Of a stretch of 10,569 nucleotides of DNA, positions 3,967 through 10,569 are shown piece by piece (the first letter of the stretch is position 1; each line of letters starts with the position of its first letter). A program made the position numbers and the translations under genes. The stretch lies in assembly GCA_015493405.1 (NCBI GenBank), contig WGDF01000312.1:1-10569 (forward strand), given 5' to 3'. The notes under the pieces were generated by a model that was not told where the DNA came from, made no database searches, and was given only the letters and a program-made list of their open reading frames with translations. Source of the DNA: Flavobacteriaceae bacterium. GTDB taxonomy: Bacteria; Bacteroidota; Bacteroidia; Flavobacteriales; Flavobacteriaceae.

Positions 3967-4665
3967 TTATTTGCAAACGGCTTGATTTTCAAATCGTAAA
4001 TCTATTTGCCGGTATTTATTTTTTAGTTGTCTTTTTACCAAATAGGTATAAATGGCTTTGAGCTTATATAATTGCTCCGCTAGATTTTCTTTTAAATCTA
4101 TTTTTATATCTGCAGATAATTGGCCCGTTTTAAGCCAAATCCCATTATCCTTGATATGAATTTCTGATATAATGTCGTTTAAAAATTTATCTTGATTTAT
4201 TTTTTTTATCAAATTGATGATTTTATTTTTCTGTCCGGAATTGATAGAACCATACACCAAAACCACTTTTTCCGTGTAGTGGTCTGACAAAGGTTTTCTG
4301 ATACCATTTTCGTCCAAATAATAGGATGATGTATGGTCAAATATGCGCGCAATGGGGCGAAATTGATCTACTTCGGCAACCAAATGGCCATTTAAATCTT
4401 TATACACTTCGGCATTGCGGATGTAATCGTTTTGTTCAAGCGATTTTTCCAAACTGATAACATCTATTTTTTTTGAAGCACTATCCTTTATTTTTATCAA
4501 CTTTGCGACCTCCTTTGGCATAATAAAGGTTTTCGCCATCGGGTAAATATGCACTTGTGTTGCTTGTATTTTTTCTTTTCCGGCCAAAGCATCAAAATAG
4601 CTGCCCAATACAATTGTAAGGAGTATGATTGATATGGTTGCTATGATGAGAATGGTGTTTTTCAT
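3967..4665 (-). CDS. ftsQ: Cell division protein FtsQ
   Basis: FtsQ is a bitopic inner-membrane protein whose periplasmic domain links the early ring to the later divisome (FtsB and FtsL in other bacteria). This 232-residue protein has a single hydrophobic segment at about residues 4-24 and no cleavage site. A POTRA-like domain follows (about 37-105), including ISLEKSLEQNDYIRNAEVYKDLNG and EVDQFRPIARI. The beta domain after it contains SSYYLDENG, a common FtsQ motif. Sequence conservation in this family is weak, so the call leans on topology, the YLDENG motif and its place directly before ftsA. The start ATG at 4665 sits three bases downstream of a heptamer repeat array, with no Shine-Dalgarno, so the native leader appears to have been replaced by repeat sequence. 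murC would normally be expected just upstream and is absent. Confidence 0.92.
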   Translation of the reverse strand: MKNTILIIATISIILLTIVLGSYFDALAGKEKIQATQVHIYPMAKTFIMPKEVAKLIKIKDSASKKIDVISLEKSLEQNDYIRNAEVYKDLNGHLVAEVDQFRPIARIFDHTSSYYLDENGIRKPLSDHYTEKVVLVYGSINSGQKNKIINLIKKINQDKFLNDIISEIHIKDNGIWLKTGQLSADIKIDLKENLAEQLYKLKAIYTYLVKRQLKNKYRQIDLRFENQAVCK

Positions 4666-4668
4666 TTT

Positions 4669-4701
4669 AGATTTCAGATTTGCGATTTGCGATTTCAGAT
4701 T
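4669..4701. repeat. 7-bp tandem repeat next to the ftsQ start
   Basis: Four complete units and one partial unit of consensus [AC]GATTT[CG] are stacked without spacers. The array ends three bases before the ftsQ ATG, so a change in unit number would alter the translation initiation region. Confidence 0.85.
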
Positions 4702-4706
4702 GTTTT

Positions 4707-4734
4707 AAACCACATAAGGTACATAGGGACATAT
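4707..4734. repeat. short ACATA-rich degenerate tandem
   Basis: The segment contains ACATAAGGT, ACATAGGG and ACATAT in succession, a degenerate 8-9 bp periodicity. It resembles a CCACATAGG-type interspersed sequence I recall from Bacteroidota intergenic DNA; this was not searched. Confidence 0.5.
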
Positions 4735-4748
4735 AATGTTTTAGATTC

Positions 4749-4770
4749 GGTCACTGAGCTTACCAAAGTG
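4749..4770. repeat. GGTCACTGAGC-type interspersed repeat fragment
   Basis: GGTCACTGAGCTT followed by CAAAGTG closely resembles the GGTCACTGAGC...GAAGTG repeats I recall as frequent between genes in many bacteria. Only one copy is in the window, so repeat status rests on memory. Confidence 0.4.
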
Positions 4771-4839
4771 TCAGATTTATTTTATTTCATAGTTTATTCT
4801 TTTACCTAATATTTGTCTATTTATTCTATTTTGATTAAT

Positions 4840-4948
4840 GTCATTTCGACAGAGCGAACTTGTGAGCGACAAGAAATCTCAAATCATAATAAATCTTAAA
4901 AGAGATTCCTCGTCATCCCGACTTGCGTCGGGACTCTGTCGGAATGAC
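4840..4948. repeat. MITE-like inverted-repeat element (109 bp)
   Basis: Terminal arms GTCATTTCGACAGAG (4840-4854) and CTCTGTCGGAATGAC (4934-4948) match as inverted repeats at 14 of 15 positions. A second nested pair, AGAAATCTC (4872-4880) and GAGATTCCT (4902-4910), and a hairpin TCCCGAC-TTGC-GTCGGGA (4916-4933) lie inside. There is no coding capacity. The design fits a non-autonomous palindromic element, and the GTCATTTCGAC terminus is one I recall as very common in Bacteroidota. Target-site duplications are not evident. Confidence 0.75.
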
Positions 4949-4959
4949 AATTGCTTTTC

Positions 4960-5001
4960 ACTTATTACTTCGCACTTTCAACTTTTAATTTTCAACTCTC
5001 T
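4960..5001. repeat. degenerate 7-bp tandem repeat spanning the murG stop
   Basis: Six consecutive heptamers start with A and mostly read ACTTnnn (for example ACTTCGC, ACTTTCA, ACTTTTA). On the minus strand the array supplies the last murG codons (residues RELKIKS) and the TGA stop, so the MurG C-terminus appears to have been overwritten by the repeat. Confidence 0.75.
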
Positions 5002-6087
5002 AACAACATCATCCACAATTAACTTCGTAGCTTCCGGCATAGCCATTTTTTTAATATTTACACTTAAATTATTGGCGACTTCTTTATTTTCAAAAATCTC
5101 ATTTATCTTTTGCCATAATTCTTTTTTCATTTTTTTTTCCGGTAATAATATGGCAGCATCATTTTTAGCTAGTGCTTGTGCATTTTTGGTTTGATGATCC
5201 TCGGCTACATAAGGCGATGGTACCAAAATAACCGGTTTGCCTATTAAAGTCAGTTCGGATATGGTTCCGGCACCGGCTCTCGAAATAATCAAATCGGCAG
5301 CAGCATAAGCTTCAGGCATATTGCTTATAAACGGCATTATTTTTATCTGTTTGTCGCTCAGCTGTTTATATTGATCAAAATCATTTTTTCCTGTTTGCCA
5401 GATGATTTGATAATCTTTTTCTTTAATTTTTTCGATTATATTCATAATAGCATCATTTAACGGATGCGCGCCGAGACTGCCGCCAATAGACAATATCGTT
5501 TTTTTATCGGGGGCCAAATCGAATTTTTTTAAAGCGATATTGTGATCAATTTTTAAATTATGCAAATCTTGACGTATCGGATTACCTGTTTTTATAATTT
5601 TACGCGCTTCAAAAAAACGTTGCAATCCGTCATAAGCCGTATAAATTTTACGGGCTTTCTTGGCCAATAATTTATTGGTGATACCGGGGTATGAATTTTG
5701 TTCTTGAATAAAGGTCGGAATACCTTTTTGCTGTGCCGCATACAATACCGGACCACTGGCAAAACCGCCGGTACCGATAACAAAATCGGGTTTAAAATTT
5801 TTGACAATTTTTTTGGCTTTCCATATGCTTGATATAAGTTTAAATGGAAAACTGATATTTTTCCACATTTTTTTTCTGTTGATCCCCGAAATCCACAAAC
5901 CTTCAATCGGATAGCCGTTTGCCGGAATTTTCTCCATTTCCATACGACCTTTGGCACCTACAAATAGAATTTCGGCATCCGGATAGCGCCTTTTGATTTC
6001 GTTGGCAATAGATAGTGCCGGAAAAATATGTCCTCCGGTGCCTCCGCCACTTATAATTGCTTTGATATGTTTTTGGTCTTTCGTCAT
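4978..6087 (-). CDS. murG: UDP-GlcNAc:lipid I N-acetylglucosaminyltransferase MurG
   Basis: MurG adds GlcNAc from UDP-GlcNAc to lipid I, making lipid II on the inner face of the cytoplasmic membrane. The 369-residue GT-B fold protein has the N-domain glycine loop SGGGTGGHIFPALSIANEI (13-31), with the conserved His at 20, and a second loop GTGGFASGP (105-113) followed by QEQNSYPGITN. The C-domain donor-binding signature is RAGAGTISELTLIGKPVILV (270-289) followed by SPYVAEDHQ. Catalytic and donor-site motifs look intact. ATG 6087 starts six bases after the ftsW stop, indicating one transcript. The last seven residues, RELKIKS, are encoded by a heptamer repeat and are probably not ancestral, but they fall beyond the conserved fold. 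murC should follow and is missing. Confidence 0.97.
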   Translation of the reverse strand: MTKDQKHIKAIISGGGTGGHIFPALSIANEIKRRYPDAEILFVGAKGRMEMEKIPANGYPIEGLWISGINRKKMWKNISFPFKLISSIWKAKKIVKNFKPDFVIGTGGFASGPVLYAAQQKGIPTFIQEQNSYPGITNKLLAKKARKIYTAYDGLQRFFEARKIIKTGNPIRQDLHNLKIDHNIALKKFDLAPDKKTILSIGGSLGAHPLNDAIMNIIEKIKEKDYQIIWQTGKNDFDQYKQLSDKQIKIMPFISNMPEAYAAADLIISRAGAGTISELTLIGKPVILVPSPYVAEDHQTKNAQALAKNDAAILLPEKKMKKELWQKINEIFENKEVANNLSVNIKKMAMPEATKLIVDDVVRELKIKS

Positions 6088-6093
6088 TTTGTT

Positions 6094-7287
6094 TTATTCG
6101 GTTACAAATTCATCTAAATTTTTTCGCTCCTTAATTTCCGTATCGCGGCTGACACTCAAAATAATGCCAATGGCAAAACAACTCATCCAAATCGCAGTTC
6201 CTCCTGAGCTTAACAAGGGTAGGGGCTGACCGGTTACCGGAATCAAACCTACTGCGACAGCCATGTTGGCTAGGGCTTGTACAACGATAGGCAGTCCGAC
6301 TGCCAATACCAGTAATTTATAATACCGGTTGGGTGTTTTTTTGGCAATAAAAAACATTCGTAATCCTAAGAGAAGATACACAAACAGGATAATTAAGCCA
6401 CCGGTCAAACTGTATTCTTCTATGATGATAGCATAAATAAAATCGGAAACCGATTGTGGCAAAAAGTTTTTTTGAACGCTTTTTCCCGGTCTGAAACCAA
6501 ATAATCCGCCTTTTGCAATAGCTATTTTAGCTTGAATTTTTTGATAATTTTTATCATTTAACCTAATACTGTTATCGTCTTTGTTTGAGTCATCAAAATA
6601 ATTTTCGATGCGGTTTTGCCAAGTGTCTAAACGATTGGATAAACGATTTGGAAAAGCTTTTAGAACTAATATGAGTAAGACTAAACCTGCTAAACCTAAA
6701 CCGAATACTTTGAGTAAATCTCTAATGGGATAGCCGGCAATAATGCTGATAATAACGACCATTGAAAAGACCAATACAGCAGTGGATAAATTTGCCGGTA
6801 AAATTAAGCCTACTACGGCGAATACCCAAATCCAGAATTTTTTAAAACTCTCGGCAAAGCTTATTTGGCTCAAATCATTTTTGCCGAAAAAACGAGCGGC
6901 AAACATCATTAAAAAAACAAAAGCGATTGTCGAAGGTTGCACGCTTCCTAAGCCCGGTAAATAAATCCAACGACTGGCATTGGCACCACCCATAGTAATA
7001 CCGCGGGTTAGTGTAAATGCCAAGGTTAAAATGATAAACGGCATGGCGACTCTGGCCATATGTGAAAAATATTTTGGATTAAATTTATGGGTAAAGAAAA
7101 TAATCAACAAGCCAATAGAGATATGTATGAAATGTTTAACCCCAAAAAACAAAGGGGTACTTTTACCGTAAACATTGGTTAAGTTACTGCTGGCACTATA
7201 TACAATCCAAAATGAGAATAGCATCAATAAGATGGTATAAACCCAAAGTTGGCGGTCGCCTGATATTTTCTTTAAAAACGTTCTCAT
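6094..7287 (-). CDS. ftsW: Septal peptidoglycan glycosyltransferase FtsW
   Basis: FtsW is the SEDS-family polymerase that, with a class B penicillin-binding protein (FtsI), builds septal peptidoglycan from lipid II. The 397-residue product is strongly hydrophobic, with about ten predicted membrane spans. Signatures include FGVKHFIHISIGLLIIF near the N-terminus and the large extracytoplasmic loop with SVQKNFLPQSVSDFIYAII, whose Asp matches the catalytic Asp297 of E. coli FtsW. The C-terminal motif PVTGQPLPLLSSGGTA begins at about 350. The tail is short, charged and cytoplasmic. A basic segment between spans (about residues 215-255, NRLDTWQNRIENYFDD) is usual for the family. The start is three bases after the murD remnant stop, and murG follows after six bases, so expression from the operon appears preserved through the murD damage. 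Confidence 0.96.
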   Translation of the reverse strand: MRTFLKKISGDRQLWVYTILLMLFSFWIVYSASSNLTNVYGKSTPLFFGVKHFIHISIGLLIIFFTHKFNPKYFSHMARVAMPFIILTLAFTLTRGITMGGANASRWIYLPGLGSVQPSTIAFVFLMMFAARFFGKNDLSQISFAESFKKFWIWVFAVVGLILPANLSTAVLVFSMVVIISIIAGYPIRDLLKVFGLGLAGLVLLILVLKAFPNRLSNRLDTWQNRIENYFDDSNKDDNSIRLNDKNYQKIQAKIAIAKGGLFGFRPGKSVQKNFLPQSVSDFIYAIIIEEYSLTGGLIILFVYLLLGLRMFFIAKKTPNRYYKLLVLAVGLPIVVQALANMAVAVGLIPVTGQPLPLLSSGGTAIWMSCFAIGIILSVSRDTEIKERKNLDEFVTE

Positions 7288-7290
7288 TTT

Positions 7291-7863
7291 TTATAATTTT
7301 TGAACGGCGTTTACAAATTGTCTGCCCCGCTCTTGATAATCTAAAAATCGACTGTCCGGTTTGCAAGCGGGAGAGAGTAACACGCGTGTGCCCGGTTCAG
7401 TGATTTGATTGGACAAATGAACAGCTTCTACCATTGATGAGGCTTCGTAAATATCATTGATGACCGGTGCAAACAATTGATACAATCGGTCATTGTCTTC
7501 GCCAATCATAATAATAGCTTCTACTTTTTGACGCACCAATGACATCAATTCCCAATAATCTGTTTGGGCGTCATCACCCCCGGCGATCCATATGATGGGC
7601 TTGCGAATGCTTTGCAATGCAAAATAAGTGGCATTGACGTTTTCGGCTTTAGCATCATTGATATAAATGACGCCGTTTTTTACCCGCACTTGTTCCATCC
7701 GGTTCGCCACATTGGTGAATTCTTGGAAAGGTTTTTTTAAAGCCTGCCGTCTTTTTTGGATTAATTGTGCTGTCATTTCTTTTGATGATTTGATTTGCGT
7801 GTCCTCCCGACGTATGTCGGAGTCGGGGGTTAGTTGATTATATGTTGATTTGAGGTGTTTCAT
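7291..7863 (-). pseudogene. murD: murD remnant: C-terminal ligase domain only, active-site positions substituted
   Basis: MurD normally adds D-Glu to UDP-MurNAc-L-Ala and has about 440-450 residues in three domains. Only 190 codons remain. Residues from about 41, with FTNVANRMEQV, GVIYIND, IWIAGG and VLLSPAC, match the MurD C-terminal domain to its end; the UDP-binding and ATPase domains are absent, including any GTNGK loop. By my alignment, E. coli Thr321 is Glu74, Lys348 is Ala99, Ser415 is Pro169 and Leu416 is Asp170, so the D-Glu site is lost; Phe422 is a conservative Tyr176. Residues 12-21 (TPDSDIRRED) are encoded by a repeat hairpin (7804-7827), so the first 30 or so residues are not MurD. 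The frame is open for 190 codons and position before ftsW is kept, so it could be translated, but ligase activity is not possible. I call it a degraded gene; a repurposed stand-alone domain is the alternative. Confidence 0.82.
7804..7827. repeat. TCCCGAC hairpin inside the murD remnant
   Basis: CTCCCGAC (7804-7811) pairs with GTCGGAG (7816-7822) around GTAT with one bulge; GTCGGG at 7822-7827 gives a perfect alternative 6-bp partner for CCCGAC. It resembles the hairpin at 4916-4933 in the murC gap and lies within the open frame. Confidence 0.7.
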
Positions 7864-7920
7864 TGTTTGTTTTTGTATTCGAATGTATTTTTTAAAATTT
7901 CAATTTGTAAATTTTTTATT

Positions 7921-7984
7921 GTGACGCAGGGTCATGCGTTTTAACATGCATTATCGAGACGCATGGCCGTGCGTCTCTACGCAT
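7921..7984. repeat. paired GACGCA/TGCGTC palindromes between mraY and the murD remnant
   Basis: Two related palindromes sit side by side. The first has ACGCA (7924-7928) and TGCGT (7935-7939) around GGGTCA. The second is a near-perfect 22-base palindrome (7956-7977) with arms GAGACGCA and TGCGTCTC around TGGCCG. A further CGCAT follows at 7980-7984. The cores GGGTCA and TGGCCG and the shared arms suggest two copies of one repeat family, possibly the ends of a small palindromic element. No T-tract follows on the transcript strand, so it is not a typical terminator. The rest of the 123-base spacer (7864-7986) is AT-rich and holds nothing else I can name. Confidence 0.75.
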
Positions 7985-7986
7985 AA

Positions 7987-9204
7987 TTATCTAACTTTTA
8001 AACTAATAATACTGATGGCTGCCAATATGATTCCGATAATCCAAAATCTTACTACAATTTTATTTTCGTGCCAGCCCAATTTTTGAAAATGATGATGAAT
8101 GGGTGCCATTCTAAATACTCTACGTCCTACGCCAAATCTTTTTTTAGTATATTTAAACCAAAATCGTTGAATAATTACCGAGGCATTTTCTATCACAAAA
8201 ATACCGGCTAAAATGGGCAACAACAATTCTTTTCGGATAAATAAGGCTACTACGGCAATGATAGCGCCTATGGTTAAACTACCCGTATCGCCCATAAATA
8301 CTTGTGCCGGAAAGGCATTGAACCATAAAAATCCGACCAAAGCACCGGCAAAGGCACTGATAAATACCGAGACTTCGCCAATACCGGGGATATACATTAT
8401 ATTTAAGTAATCCGACACCATTATATTTCCCGAAATCCAAGCCAAAAGCGCTAAAGCTAATACGATAATAGCTGATGTCCCTGAGGCCAATCCATCAATT
8501 CCGTCAGTTAAATTTGCTGCGTTTGAAATGGCTGTAATGATAAAAATTACGACAAAAATGAATAGAATCCAAGTATATTTAGTCCAAGACGGACTGATGA
8601 TTTTTAGCACATTGGCATAATCAAATTCATTATTTTTGATCATTGGAATGGTTGTTTTGAGCGATTTTTCAGGTTGATTGAAATTTTCACCCAATTTCTT
8701 TTGTATCTGCGCAGGTTCCTTAAAATTTTTAGTTTGTATCGTGATATTTTGATTGACAATCATAACCGTGCCAATGACGATTCCTAAACTGACTTGCCCC
8801 AGAATTTTAAATTTGCCTGCCAGCCCTTCTTTATTTTTTTTTATGACTTTGATATAATCATCGGTGAAACCGATAAAGCCCATCCAAAGTAGTGTAATCA
8901 ATAGCAGTTGCACGTAAATATTACTCAAATTATTGAACAATAAAACCGGAATCAGAGTGGCTAAAATGATGATAATACCGCCCATAGTTGGAGTGCCTTC
9001 TTTGAGTTTTTGACCTTGCAAGCCTAAATCACGAACCGTTTCACCGATTTGCATTTGACGCAAACGGGCAATAATTTTCTTGCCGACCAATAAGGAAAAT
9101 AACAAGGCGGTTACAAATGCTATGCCTGATCGAAATGACAGATAGTCAAATAATCCGGCGCCCGGAAAGTTGTTCCATATATATTTGAAAAAGTAATACA
9201 ACAT
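7987..9204 (-). CDS. mraY: Phospho-N-acetylmuramoyl-pentapeptide transferase MraY
   Basis: MraY transfers phospho-MurNAc-pentapeptide from UDP to undecaprenyl phosphate, forming lipid I in the cytoplasmic membrane. The 405-residue polytopic protein has GTPTMGGI (70-77), the catalytic FTDDYIKV (113-120), [12 protein letters not shown] (231-242), FMGDTGS (303-309) with the third conserved Asp, and the cytoplasmic [11 protein letters not shown] (368-378). It is about 45 residues longer than the E. coli enzyme owing to an extra, more polar segment at about 150-210 between membrane spans, a form I know from Bacteroidota MraY. All key residues are present. It starts 14 bases after the murE stop. 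The following gene is the murD remnant, reached only after a palindrome-rich spacer. Confidence 0.97.
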
Positions 9205-9218
9205 AATTGTTTATTTTA

Positions 9219-10569
9219 TTAAATGGATTTGTTAATTAATCCGAATGCCATTTTTATTTCTTCGCGATCATCAAAATGCGATTTTTGTCCTTTTACAATT
9301 TGATAATCTTCGTGCCCTTTGCCGGCGATTAAAATGATATCACCTGTATTTGCCAATTGTGCTGCAGCTCTAATAGCCTGATGTCTGTCAGTTATACGCA
9401 ACGTTTTTTTATAATGTTCTCCCGGCACGCCTGTTTCCATATCATCTATAATGGCATCCGGTTCTTCGTCACGCGGATTATCTGATGTGAAAATAATTGT
9501 GTCGCTCAAACGGGCTGCTACTTCTGCCATTTCGGGTCTTTTGCTTTTATCACGATTGCCGCCGGCACCCACAACTGTGATTAGCTTTTCGGTATTTTTA
9601 GGCCGGATTTCGTTGATAGTTATTAAAACATTTTCCAGTGCATCGGGTGTGTGCGCATAATCTACAATAGCAATTTTACCTTCGGGAGATAAAACCAATT
9701 CGAAGCGTCCGGTTACACTTTGCAATTCGCTCAATATTTGTAAAATATCAAAGGGTTCCATTCCCAGCTGGTCTGCGATGCCATAAACAGCCAAAATATT
9801 GTAGGCATTGAATTTGCCAATCAGTCTCACCCAAACATCCATTTGATTGATGTTCAATAACATACCACTAAAATTCTGCTCTAAAATTTTGGCTTTGTAA
9901 TCTGCCGGATTTTTAAGCGCATAGGTCAATTTTCGGGCTTTGGTATTTTGCAACATAAACAAACCGTTTTTATCATCGGCATTAACCAATGCAAAAGCAT
10001 TTTTATTCAAAGCATCAAAAAATTGTTTTTTGGTATCCCTGTAATTGATAAATGTCTCGTGGTAATCAAGATGATCATGGGTCAAATTGGTAAAAACACC
10101 ACCGTCAAAATCCAATCCTGCCGTACGTTTTTGATCAATACCGTGAGAACTGACTTCCATAAAAGCATGGGTCACCCCTTGTTGAACCATTTTGCTCAAA
10201 TAATAATTAATCATCAACGGGTCAGGAGTGGTATGTGTAGCTGGAAAAGTTTTGTCATCAATCAGAATGGCAACCGTAGATAGCAAGCCGGTTTTAAATC
10301 CTGCTTTACTGAATAGCTTATATGCCAATGTTGCTGTTGTGGTTTTACCGTTTGTGCCGGTAATACCGACCAATTTTAGTTTTTTAGATGGATTATCATA
10401 AAAATTAGATGCCATAATAGCCAATGCCTTATGTGCATCGGGCACTTGAATTTGAGACACATCCGCCGGTAAATTATCTTGCCAGTCTTCAACAATGGCC
10501 AATTTGGCACCATTTTGAACGGCTTTTTCAATAAATTGGTGTCCGTCGACTTGCACCCCTTTAAGCGCC
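9219..10569 (-). CDS. murE: UDP-MurNAc-L-Ala-D-Glu:meso-DAP ligase MurE (5' end outside window)
   Basis: MurE is the ATP-dependent cytoplasmic ligase adding the third residue to UDP-MurNAc-dipeptide. The open frame runs off the window edge; 449 residues are visible, beginning ALKGVQVDGHQFI, which is internal to the UDP-binding domain. Comparing P-loop positions with E. coli MurE suggests about 45 residues are missing. The GTG codon at 10556 is not the likely start. Motifs by visible residue are the P-loop GITGTNGKTTT (about 68-78), EVSSHGID, FTNLTHDHLDYH with the following YRDTK that should hold the carbamylated Lys, VDYAHTPDAL, SDNPRDEEP (DNPR at 363-366) and GKGHEDYQ. DNPR is the signature for meso-diaminopimelate rather than lysine. 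The gene is intact as far as visible. Its substrate requires MurC and MurD activity, both damaged at this locus. Confidence 0.97.
   Translation of the reverse strand, partial: ALKGVQVDGHQFIEKAVQNGAKLAIVEDWQDNLPADVSQIQVPDAHKALAIMASNFYDNPSKKLKLVGITGTNGKTTTATLAYKLFSKAGFKTGLLSTVAILIDDKTFPATHTTPDPLMINYYLSKMVQQGVTHAFMEVSSHGIDQKRTAGLDFDGGVFTNLTHDHLDYHETFINYRDTKKQFFDALNKNAFALVNADDKNGLFMLQNTKARKLTYALKNPADYKAKILEQNFSGMLLNINQMDVWVRLIGKFNAYNILAVYGIADQLGMEPFDILQILSELQSVTGRFELVLSPEGKIAIVDYAHTPDALENVLITINEIRPKNTEKLITVVGAGGNRDKSKRPEMAEVAARLSDTIIFTSDNPRDEEPDAIIDDMETGVPGEHYKKTLRITDRHQAIRAAAQLANTGDIILIAGKGHEDYQIVKGQKSHFDDREEIKMAFGLINKSI

Follow-up and report, generated by a model that had tools for sequence, protein, structure and literature searches.

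The window, that is the whole stretch of DNA analyzed here (10,569 bases), is an entire contig from a draft genome of 2.07 Mb that is 91% complete and split into 395 contigs. It carries a dcw cluster on the minus strand in the order murE (cut), mraY, a short murD-like gene (the stub), ftsW, murG, ftsQ, ftsA, ftsZ and a yqeY gene. The families of seven of these frames were assigned by profile matches, while ftsA and ftsZ were named by eye. No tRNA and no Rfam family above threshold was found in the window. The features that matter here are as follows.

9219..10568, minus strand: murE, its 5' end cut by the contig end (NF001126, 593 bits; cut-off 373)
7987..9204, minus strand: mraY (profile matches)
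7777..7863, minus strand: upstream extension of the stub frame, poorly conserved and probably untranslated; the upstream frames of congeners differ
7291..7776, minus strand: stand-alone MurD C-terminal domain protein (the stub), 161 aa, most likely the true CDS
6094..7287, minus strand: ftsW (profile matches)
4978..6087, minus strand: murG (profile matches)
4666..4977: gap between murG and ftsQ, the site of murC in relatives by gene order, without a murC remnant
3967..4665, minus strand: ftsQ (Pfam match)

A tblastn search of the murG-ftsQ gap (4666..4977) with one MurD and ten MurC proteins gave no match at E <= 1. Short palindromic elements were seen by eye at 4905-4950, 7800-7830 and 7920-7980, in the gaps where murC and the N-terminal half of murD are absent, and may mark the deletions. 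The murE ends of this contig (C312, window 9219-10568) and of contig C88 (L004) overlap with amino-acid differences, which suggests strain variation that broke the assembly.

The frame at 7291-7863 (minus strand) has 190 codons and its sole Pfam domain is Mur_ligase_C (PF02875, 43.6 bits; cut-off 28.4). The murD profile TIGR01087 aligns to it over positions 283-440 of 441 with 122.8 bits, below the cut-off of 211.95. This confirms the original prediction of a MurD reduced to its C-terminal domain. The stub retains the fold of that domain and is nearest to MurD among the Mur ligases, and it lacks what defines a MurD ligase of the TIGR01087 equivalog: the score, the UDP-binding and ATPase (Mur_ligase_M) domains and the D-Glu contacts. 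It derives from MurD through loss of the UDP-binding and ATPase domains and therefore is no ligase on its own. The frame is open up to 7863, as had been proposed, but Met 7776 is the most likely start of the conserved protein, which then has about 161 aa (7291-7776), because the upstream frame shuts within 10 codons of this Met in the congeners G003, G004, G008 and G010 and the 29 codons preceding it in the window are poorly conserved. In some relatives the start could lie 12-13 codons further upstream.

The stub query matched 38 of 40 relatives, own genome included. In 10 of the 12 other congeners the match lies in an open frame of 161-203 aa (58-81% identity), whereas outside the genus 26 of 27 genomes match in frames of 436-492 aa. 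One congener (G002) gave no stub match and no MurE either, so its dcw contig is probably missing. The genus sequences are open over the full domain in 11 of 11 cases. The dN/dS check that had been suggested was run (Nei-Gojobori) and points to purifying selection, with 0.092 between the window and L073 at a dS of 0.99 and a median of 0.119 (12 sequences, 45 finite pairs of 66); the neighbours mraY and murG gave 0.053 and 0.126. When neutral change was simulated, 6.6% of runs still had an open frame at 0.1 substitutions per site, and 0 of 2000 did at a divergence of 0.5. A chance frame was considered and rejected. With dN/dS of 0.09-0.12 and no frame breaks in 11/11 sequences, the gene does not have the features of a pseudogene; it encodes a conserved single-domain protein under purifying selection, and the lone domain is almost certainly conserved and functional. 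The recent decay that the original prediction allowed for is not supported, the stub being genus-wide, and its other reading, that the C-terminal Mur domain has been retained for some different role, gains support.

Residues were numbered by phmmer alignment of the conserved 161-aa protein to E. coli MurD (1e0d), and counts refer to 51 stub proteins and 70 native-like sequences (L106, described below, was classed as native-like and lies outside the 51). Window residues 45, 70 and 140 correspond to E. coli T321, K348 and S415 and are now E, A and P, exactly the substitutions noticed at first. The codons concerned are listed here.

7699..7701, minus strand: Arg 26 (E. coli R302), invariant in 51/51 stub proteins
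7654..7656, minus strand: Asp 41 (D317), invariant in 51/51 stub proteins
7648..7650, minus strand: Lys 43 (K319), invariant in 51/51 stub proteins
7642..7644, minus strand: Glu 45 (T321 replaced), E in 47/51 stubs and T in 70/70 native-like sequences
7567..7569, minus strand: Ala 70 (K348 lost), A in 21/51 stubs, K in 2 and eleven other residues in the rest
7354..7362, minus strand: Lys-Pro-Asp 139-141 (A414, S415 and L416 replaced), K in 48, P in 41 or A in 10, and D in 48 of 51 stubs

The K348 position holds K in 69 of the 70 native-like sequences. In the available text of PMC3527612, residues 299-437 of MurD form the D-Glu-binding domain, Ser415 hydrogen-bonds the D-Glu moiety, and Lys348 and Thr321 bond a carboxyl group of D-Glu-mimicking inhibitors in simulations. 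Among 89 columns conserved in the native-like set, 40 are kept in stubs and 8 have a new conserved residue, 4 of these 8 in the D-Glu pocket. The pocket of the stub has acquired new conserved residues, and R302, D317 and K319, on the ATP side, are kept. Chance or decay as the source of the substitutions was ruled out by their recurrence across congeners.

The wider distribution was assessed on loci of the GTDB collection, taking the best 80 of 449. Among these best 80, 13 are C-only: 11 of the window clade (L073-L083), which overlap with the congener genomes and are not independent of them, plus L146 and L106. In the remaining 67 the frames run to 444-502 aa, and nearly all of these loci show NDSKATN, GGxDK and SPACAS (the pattern missed a few motifs). 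Full-length MurD proteins carrying the same substitutions, raised at the outset as a possibility, are not what these relatives have, since nearly all of the 67 show the normal residues. In L146 and in the 9 clade loci that reach far enough, ftsQ comes straight after murG and murC is absent (L078 and L081 end too early to judge). In a tree of five dcw proteins with 34 rows, the window clade and L083 form one group (100/100), while L146 groups with G014 and G015 (96/99), both of which retain a full MurD. Forcing L146 with the window clade changed the dcw-gene tree by -61 log units (p-AU 0.028), in a test made on linked genes under LG+G4 without mixture, with the group picked after the first tree. 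Separate truncations in the window clade and L146 thus have moderate support from these gene trees. L146 and its relatives P0048 and P0061 have E at 321 and A at 415.

L106, a Lentimicrobiaceae MAG of the Bacteroidales, is clearly separate from the window clade; it has a lone MurD C-domain in its dcw cluster (5935-6483) and keeps murC, T321 and S415. Its genome (G042), which is outside the window genus, encodes a second, full-length MurD-type protein (L198:1171-2451, 307.6 bits) with the motifs NDSIAT and GGYDRG, which we take to be MurD2-like. L106 may be an ordinary remnant, because this second MurD is present, T321 and S415 are kept and it is a single genome. In genus g21 (Flavobacteriales) no MurD match was found in the four genomes listed (G032, G050, G062 and G071); 17 unmatched genomes of that search lie outside the listing. 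In G032 (C10, L200) murD and murC are cleanly gone from an otherwise complete dcw cluster; MurE is kept there and MurI was not found. As a separate observation, at least 13 genomes of 600 kb from one genus (G055, G065, G074, G082, G105, G159, G163, G178, G192, G206, G221, G231 and G241) have murD frames of 304-312 aa, against 459-479 in other members, perhaps through a frame break in the N-terminal half. Their size is that of cockroach endosymbionts.

MurD is normally essential, and MurC to MurF are regarded as an essential core of wall synthesis and as drug targets. Another source of MurD activity was accordingly expected in the original prediction, and no other MurD appeared. The own draft genome has no second MurD and no MurD middle domain, as a murD2-type ligase would have, and in the 13 genus genomes a search with the Mur middle domain (PF08245) detected no MurD apart from a probable contaminant, G007:C303. 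The domain was found in MurE (11 genomes), MurF-type (12), Mpl-like (11) and FolC-type (12) proteins and in G007:C303, with types assigned by length and score; the MurE, MurF and Mpl-like proteins of G001 were checked with HMMs, and MurE passes its curated cut-off in the two genomes checked for this, the own one and G001. G007:C303 (L064) encodes a 427-aa MurD with 27% identity to the stub query. It is probably contamination: G007 is 5% contaminated and the neighbours of the gene are, by eye, unlike those of the window clade.

MurC is missing too, its cut-off being reached in 0 of 13 genus genomes versus 17 of 18 others. G001, 99% complete in about 20 contigs, yielded neither a full-length MurC nor a full-length MurD. 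Very probably, then, the genus has neither MurC nor a full MurD. L146 likewise has lost murC from its cluster, and neither a full-length MurC nor a full-length MurD turned up in its draft genome. MurA matches all 13 genus genomes (above cut-off in 11), and MurI matches 7 of 13 (in G000 as two fragments below cut-off) versus 11 of 12 others. G041 has MurE, MurF-type and Mpl-like genes, and G040 has MurE, a FolC-type gene and a cut MurF-type gene, the types being assigned partly by eye in both.

The sole UDP-MurNAc:peptide ligase found is the Mpl-like protein, which is 44-57% identical to Mpl-like paralogues of 15 relatives and 22-27% identical to ten MurC proteins. Those relatives carry it alongside a true MurC. 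Judging from these identities, the UDP-MurNAc ligase that remains in the genus is orthologous to the second, Mpl-like copy in the relatives. The G001 protein scores 248 bits with the MurC model (residues 1-378) and 177 bits with the Mpl model (residues 2-441), below both curated cut-offs, murC and mpl (TIGR01081, 388.7 bits); as the TIGR01081 cut-off is not reached, we call it no more than Mpl-like. One change in this protein, I192M (window-genus numbering), is common to the three MurC/MurD-less lineages, and some other lineage pairs share more positions than g1 and G032. Convergent change as evidence of a role switch was dropped, since 86 of 816 lineage triples share at least one position.

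All 13 genus genomes also encode an enolase-superfamily (MR_MLE) protein, distinct from MenC and enolase, with E values of 2e-30 or better to PF13378. Nine were assigned by eye, those of G000 and G001 were confirmed, and those of G003, G004 and G011 rest on score and length only. With the G008 copy as query, the match to 3iji is at 9e-68 and those to the L-Ala-D/L-Glu epimerase chains 1jpd and 1jpm are at about 1e-27. We call the protein epimerase-like only, because this copy reaches 127.8 of 343 and 134.3 of 500 bits, short of the NCBIfam equivalog cut-offs. The KxK motif and second Lys, the D/E/D ligands and the C-terminal DxDG are intact in 9/9 aligned proteins from 9 genomes; we take their roles to be catalysis and metal binding.

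Full-length relatives of the epimerase-like protein, with at least 39% identity, occur in G040, G041, G032, G062 and G071; in G050, which is without a MurD match, none was found. Among relatives keeping MurD it is present in 4 of 24 (16 searched directly, 8 from the profile listing), a 30% match in G016 being left uncounted. By lineage this gives 3/3 MurC/MurD-less versus 4/24 MurD-keeping (Fisher p 0.012), or p = 0.019 with G016 counted and 0.046 without g21, the test having been chosen after the pattern was seen. The MurC-less status of g21 rests on G032, as G050, G062 and G071 were judged by MurD only.

In G040 (L283:2-2200) the gene that comes after the epimerase-like one, on the same strand, encodes an ATP-grasp protein (ATP-grasp_4, 1.4e-58), which is nearest in the PDB to the L-amino acid ligase BL00235 (3vot, 4e-12) and weakly similar to BacD. 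The G041 locus noted alongside it is L287:1459-2676; G041 has the only other strong ATP-grasp match among 44 genomes (43% identity), on a contig other than that of the epimerase. G014 and G035 gave weak matches, and no homologue was found in the 13 genus and 4 g21 genomes.

A genus that is seemingly without MurC and catalytic MurD must have another way of starting the stem peptide. These data suggest that, in this group of uncultured Flavobacteriales bacteria, wall precursors are made by another route and that the domain left over from MurD, its last third, has a new job. The best overall explanation, which we hold tentatively and short of an even chance, combines a dipeptide route through the Mpl-like ligase with the stub as a non-catalytic partner. 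In such a route the first two residues would be added to UDP-MurNAc together, in a single step. The dipeptide L-Ala-Glu would be ligated or scavenged, the epimerase-like enzyme (of the L-Ala-D/L-Glu type) would turn it into L-Ala-D-Glu, the Mpl-like ligase would join this to UDP-MurNAc, and MurE and MurF would complete the pentapeptide. One-step attachment of a peptide that begins with L-Ala would explain the loss of both MurC and MurD. As a reading of gene content, this dipeptide bypass is quite possible, if not yet probable.

The part of the stub is less firm. It may dock, through its nucleotide-facing side, on the Mpl-like ligase or MurE, or alternatively on the MraY-MurG-FtsW machinery encoded next to it. 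Such a partner role in trans is favoured by the contrast between frozen residues on the nucleotide-facing side and a rewritten substrate pocket, and we regard it as possible but somewhat doubtful. The most complete version seems unlikely as a whole, namely that preformed L-Ala-D-Glu, made by a dipeptide ligase, the epimerase and the Mpl-like protein, replaces MurC, MurD and partly MurI, and that the C-domain of the redundant MurD was excised on more than one occasion, to work in trans with a remaining Mur ligase. Several points speak against the dipeptide route: no ATP-grasp gene in the genus, the epimerase-like protein in 4/24 MurD-keepers, MurI in 7/13 genus genomes, no Mpl-like match in G040, G003 and G010, no epimerase-like protein in G050, scores of the Mpl-like and epimerase-like proteins below their curated cut-offs, convergent change in the Mpl-like protein no higher than background, an NlpC/P60 gene beside the epimerase-like gene of G032, and the draft state of the stub-bearing genomes. 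In addition, according to the available text of PMC3060825, the Mpl of Psychrobacter (PaMpl) takes L-Ala-D-Glu weakly, at 1.4 against 260 per min for the tripeptide (about 185-fold).

That preference for the tripeptide, the known substrate of Mpl in the same text (PMC3060825), favours a different source of peptide. As happens in recycling, the Mpl-like ligase could attach to UDP-MurNAc L-Ala-D-Glu-mDAP peptides that were imported from other bacteria, with the epimerase serving peptide catabolism and the stub having an unrelated, structural role. The missing ATP-grasp gene agrees with such scavenging, and so does the NlpC/P60 gene that adjoins the epimerase-like gene in G019, G025 and the MurC/MurD-less G032, as murein-peptide breakdown predicts. 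In G032 the epimerase-like protein also has an apparent export signal (by eye), which fits breakdown of murein peptides rather than synthesis, so g21 may do only the former. However, MurE is kept (11/13 genus genomes, G032, G040 and G041), and it would be needless in a pure tripeptide route; MurI is kept in 7/13 genus genomes, and inspection by eye of the G001, G040 and G041 stretches showed no NlpC/P60-like neighbour of the epimerase-like gene. We consider scavenging unlikely, if a serious contender.

Alternatively, the Mpl-like ligase might itself add L-Ala, as MurC does, while a protein outside the Mur superfamily supplies MurD activity and the stub presents the substrate. The higher score with the MurC model and the weak L-Ala activity of PaMpl (0.7 per min, in the available text of PMC3060825) point this way, but the MurC model stops at residue 378 whereas the Mpl model runs on to 441 in the G001 protein, the relatives have the Mpl-like protein in addition to a true MurC, and no candidate non-Mur ligase common to the MurC/MurD-less lineages is known, all of which makes it improbable. 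Still less credible is a decaying stub beside a full-length murD missed by the assemblies. The genomes are incomplete, and in the own genome (91% complete, 395 contigs) murF likewise was not found, yet dN/dS is 0.09-0.12 at dS near 1, the domain is open in 11/11 genus sequences, and no full-length MurC or MurD turned up in G001 or other genus genomes, the probable contaminant aside. An assembly artefact or chimeric join at intergenic repeats has a practically negligible chance, despite the palindromic repeats seen by eye near the break in the window, as the stub-bearing genomes, although drafts, are independent MAGs that show the same arrangement on contigs of up to 124 kb, and the suspicion that mraY had been wrongly separated from a full-length murD is dispelled with it.

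As for the bearing on what is known, an entire genus whose dcw cluster is ordinary in other respects seems to do without MurC and the catalytic part of MurD while keeping MurE, MurF, MraY, MurG and FtsW, and the stub offers a natural experiment on the abilities of a Mur C-terminal domain by itself. In the open-licence PMC literature, no title among the matches listed deals with a MurD C-domain that stands alone or with Flavobacteriales that lack both MurC and MurD; PMC9116674, in its available text, treats peptidoglycan metabolism in aphid symbionts (Buchnera).

Compared with E. coli-type MurD, the stub is without the UDP-binding and ATPase domains, has T321, K348 and S415 replaced and scores below the TIGR01087 cut-off. 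L-Ala-D/L-Glu epimerases act in the breakdown of murein peptides, whereas the epimerase-like protein is proposed here to work in the biosynthetic direction. The L-amino acid ligase BL00235 (3vot) and, weakly, BacD resemble the ATP-grasp protein of G040, which among 44 genomes has strong matches in G040 itself and G041 only, and none in the window genus. A parallel is the MurD2/MurL pair of Xanthomonas, a natural alternative to MurD and glutamate racemase by way of Glu epimerization (PMC8788868, available text). However, as that text describes, MurD2 is a ligase of full length whose substrate is UDP-MurNAc-L-Ala, and the nucleotide is epimerized by MurL, whereas in the window genus no second MurD was found, the probable contaminant aside, and MurC is also gone. 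Known Mpl is non-essential, serves recycling and strongly prefers the tripeptide (PMC3060825, available text), whereas the Mpl-like protein of the window genus, which scores below the Mpl model cut-off, would be the sole route.
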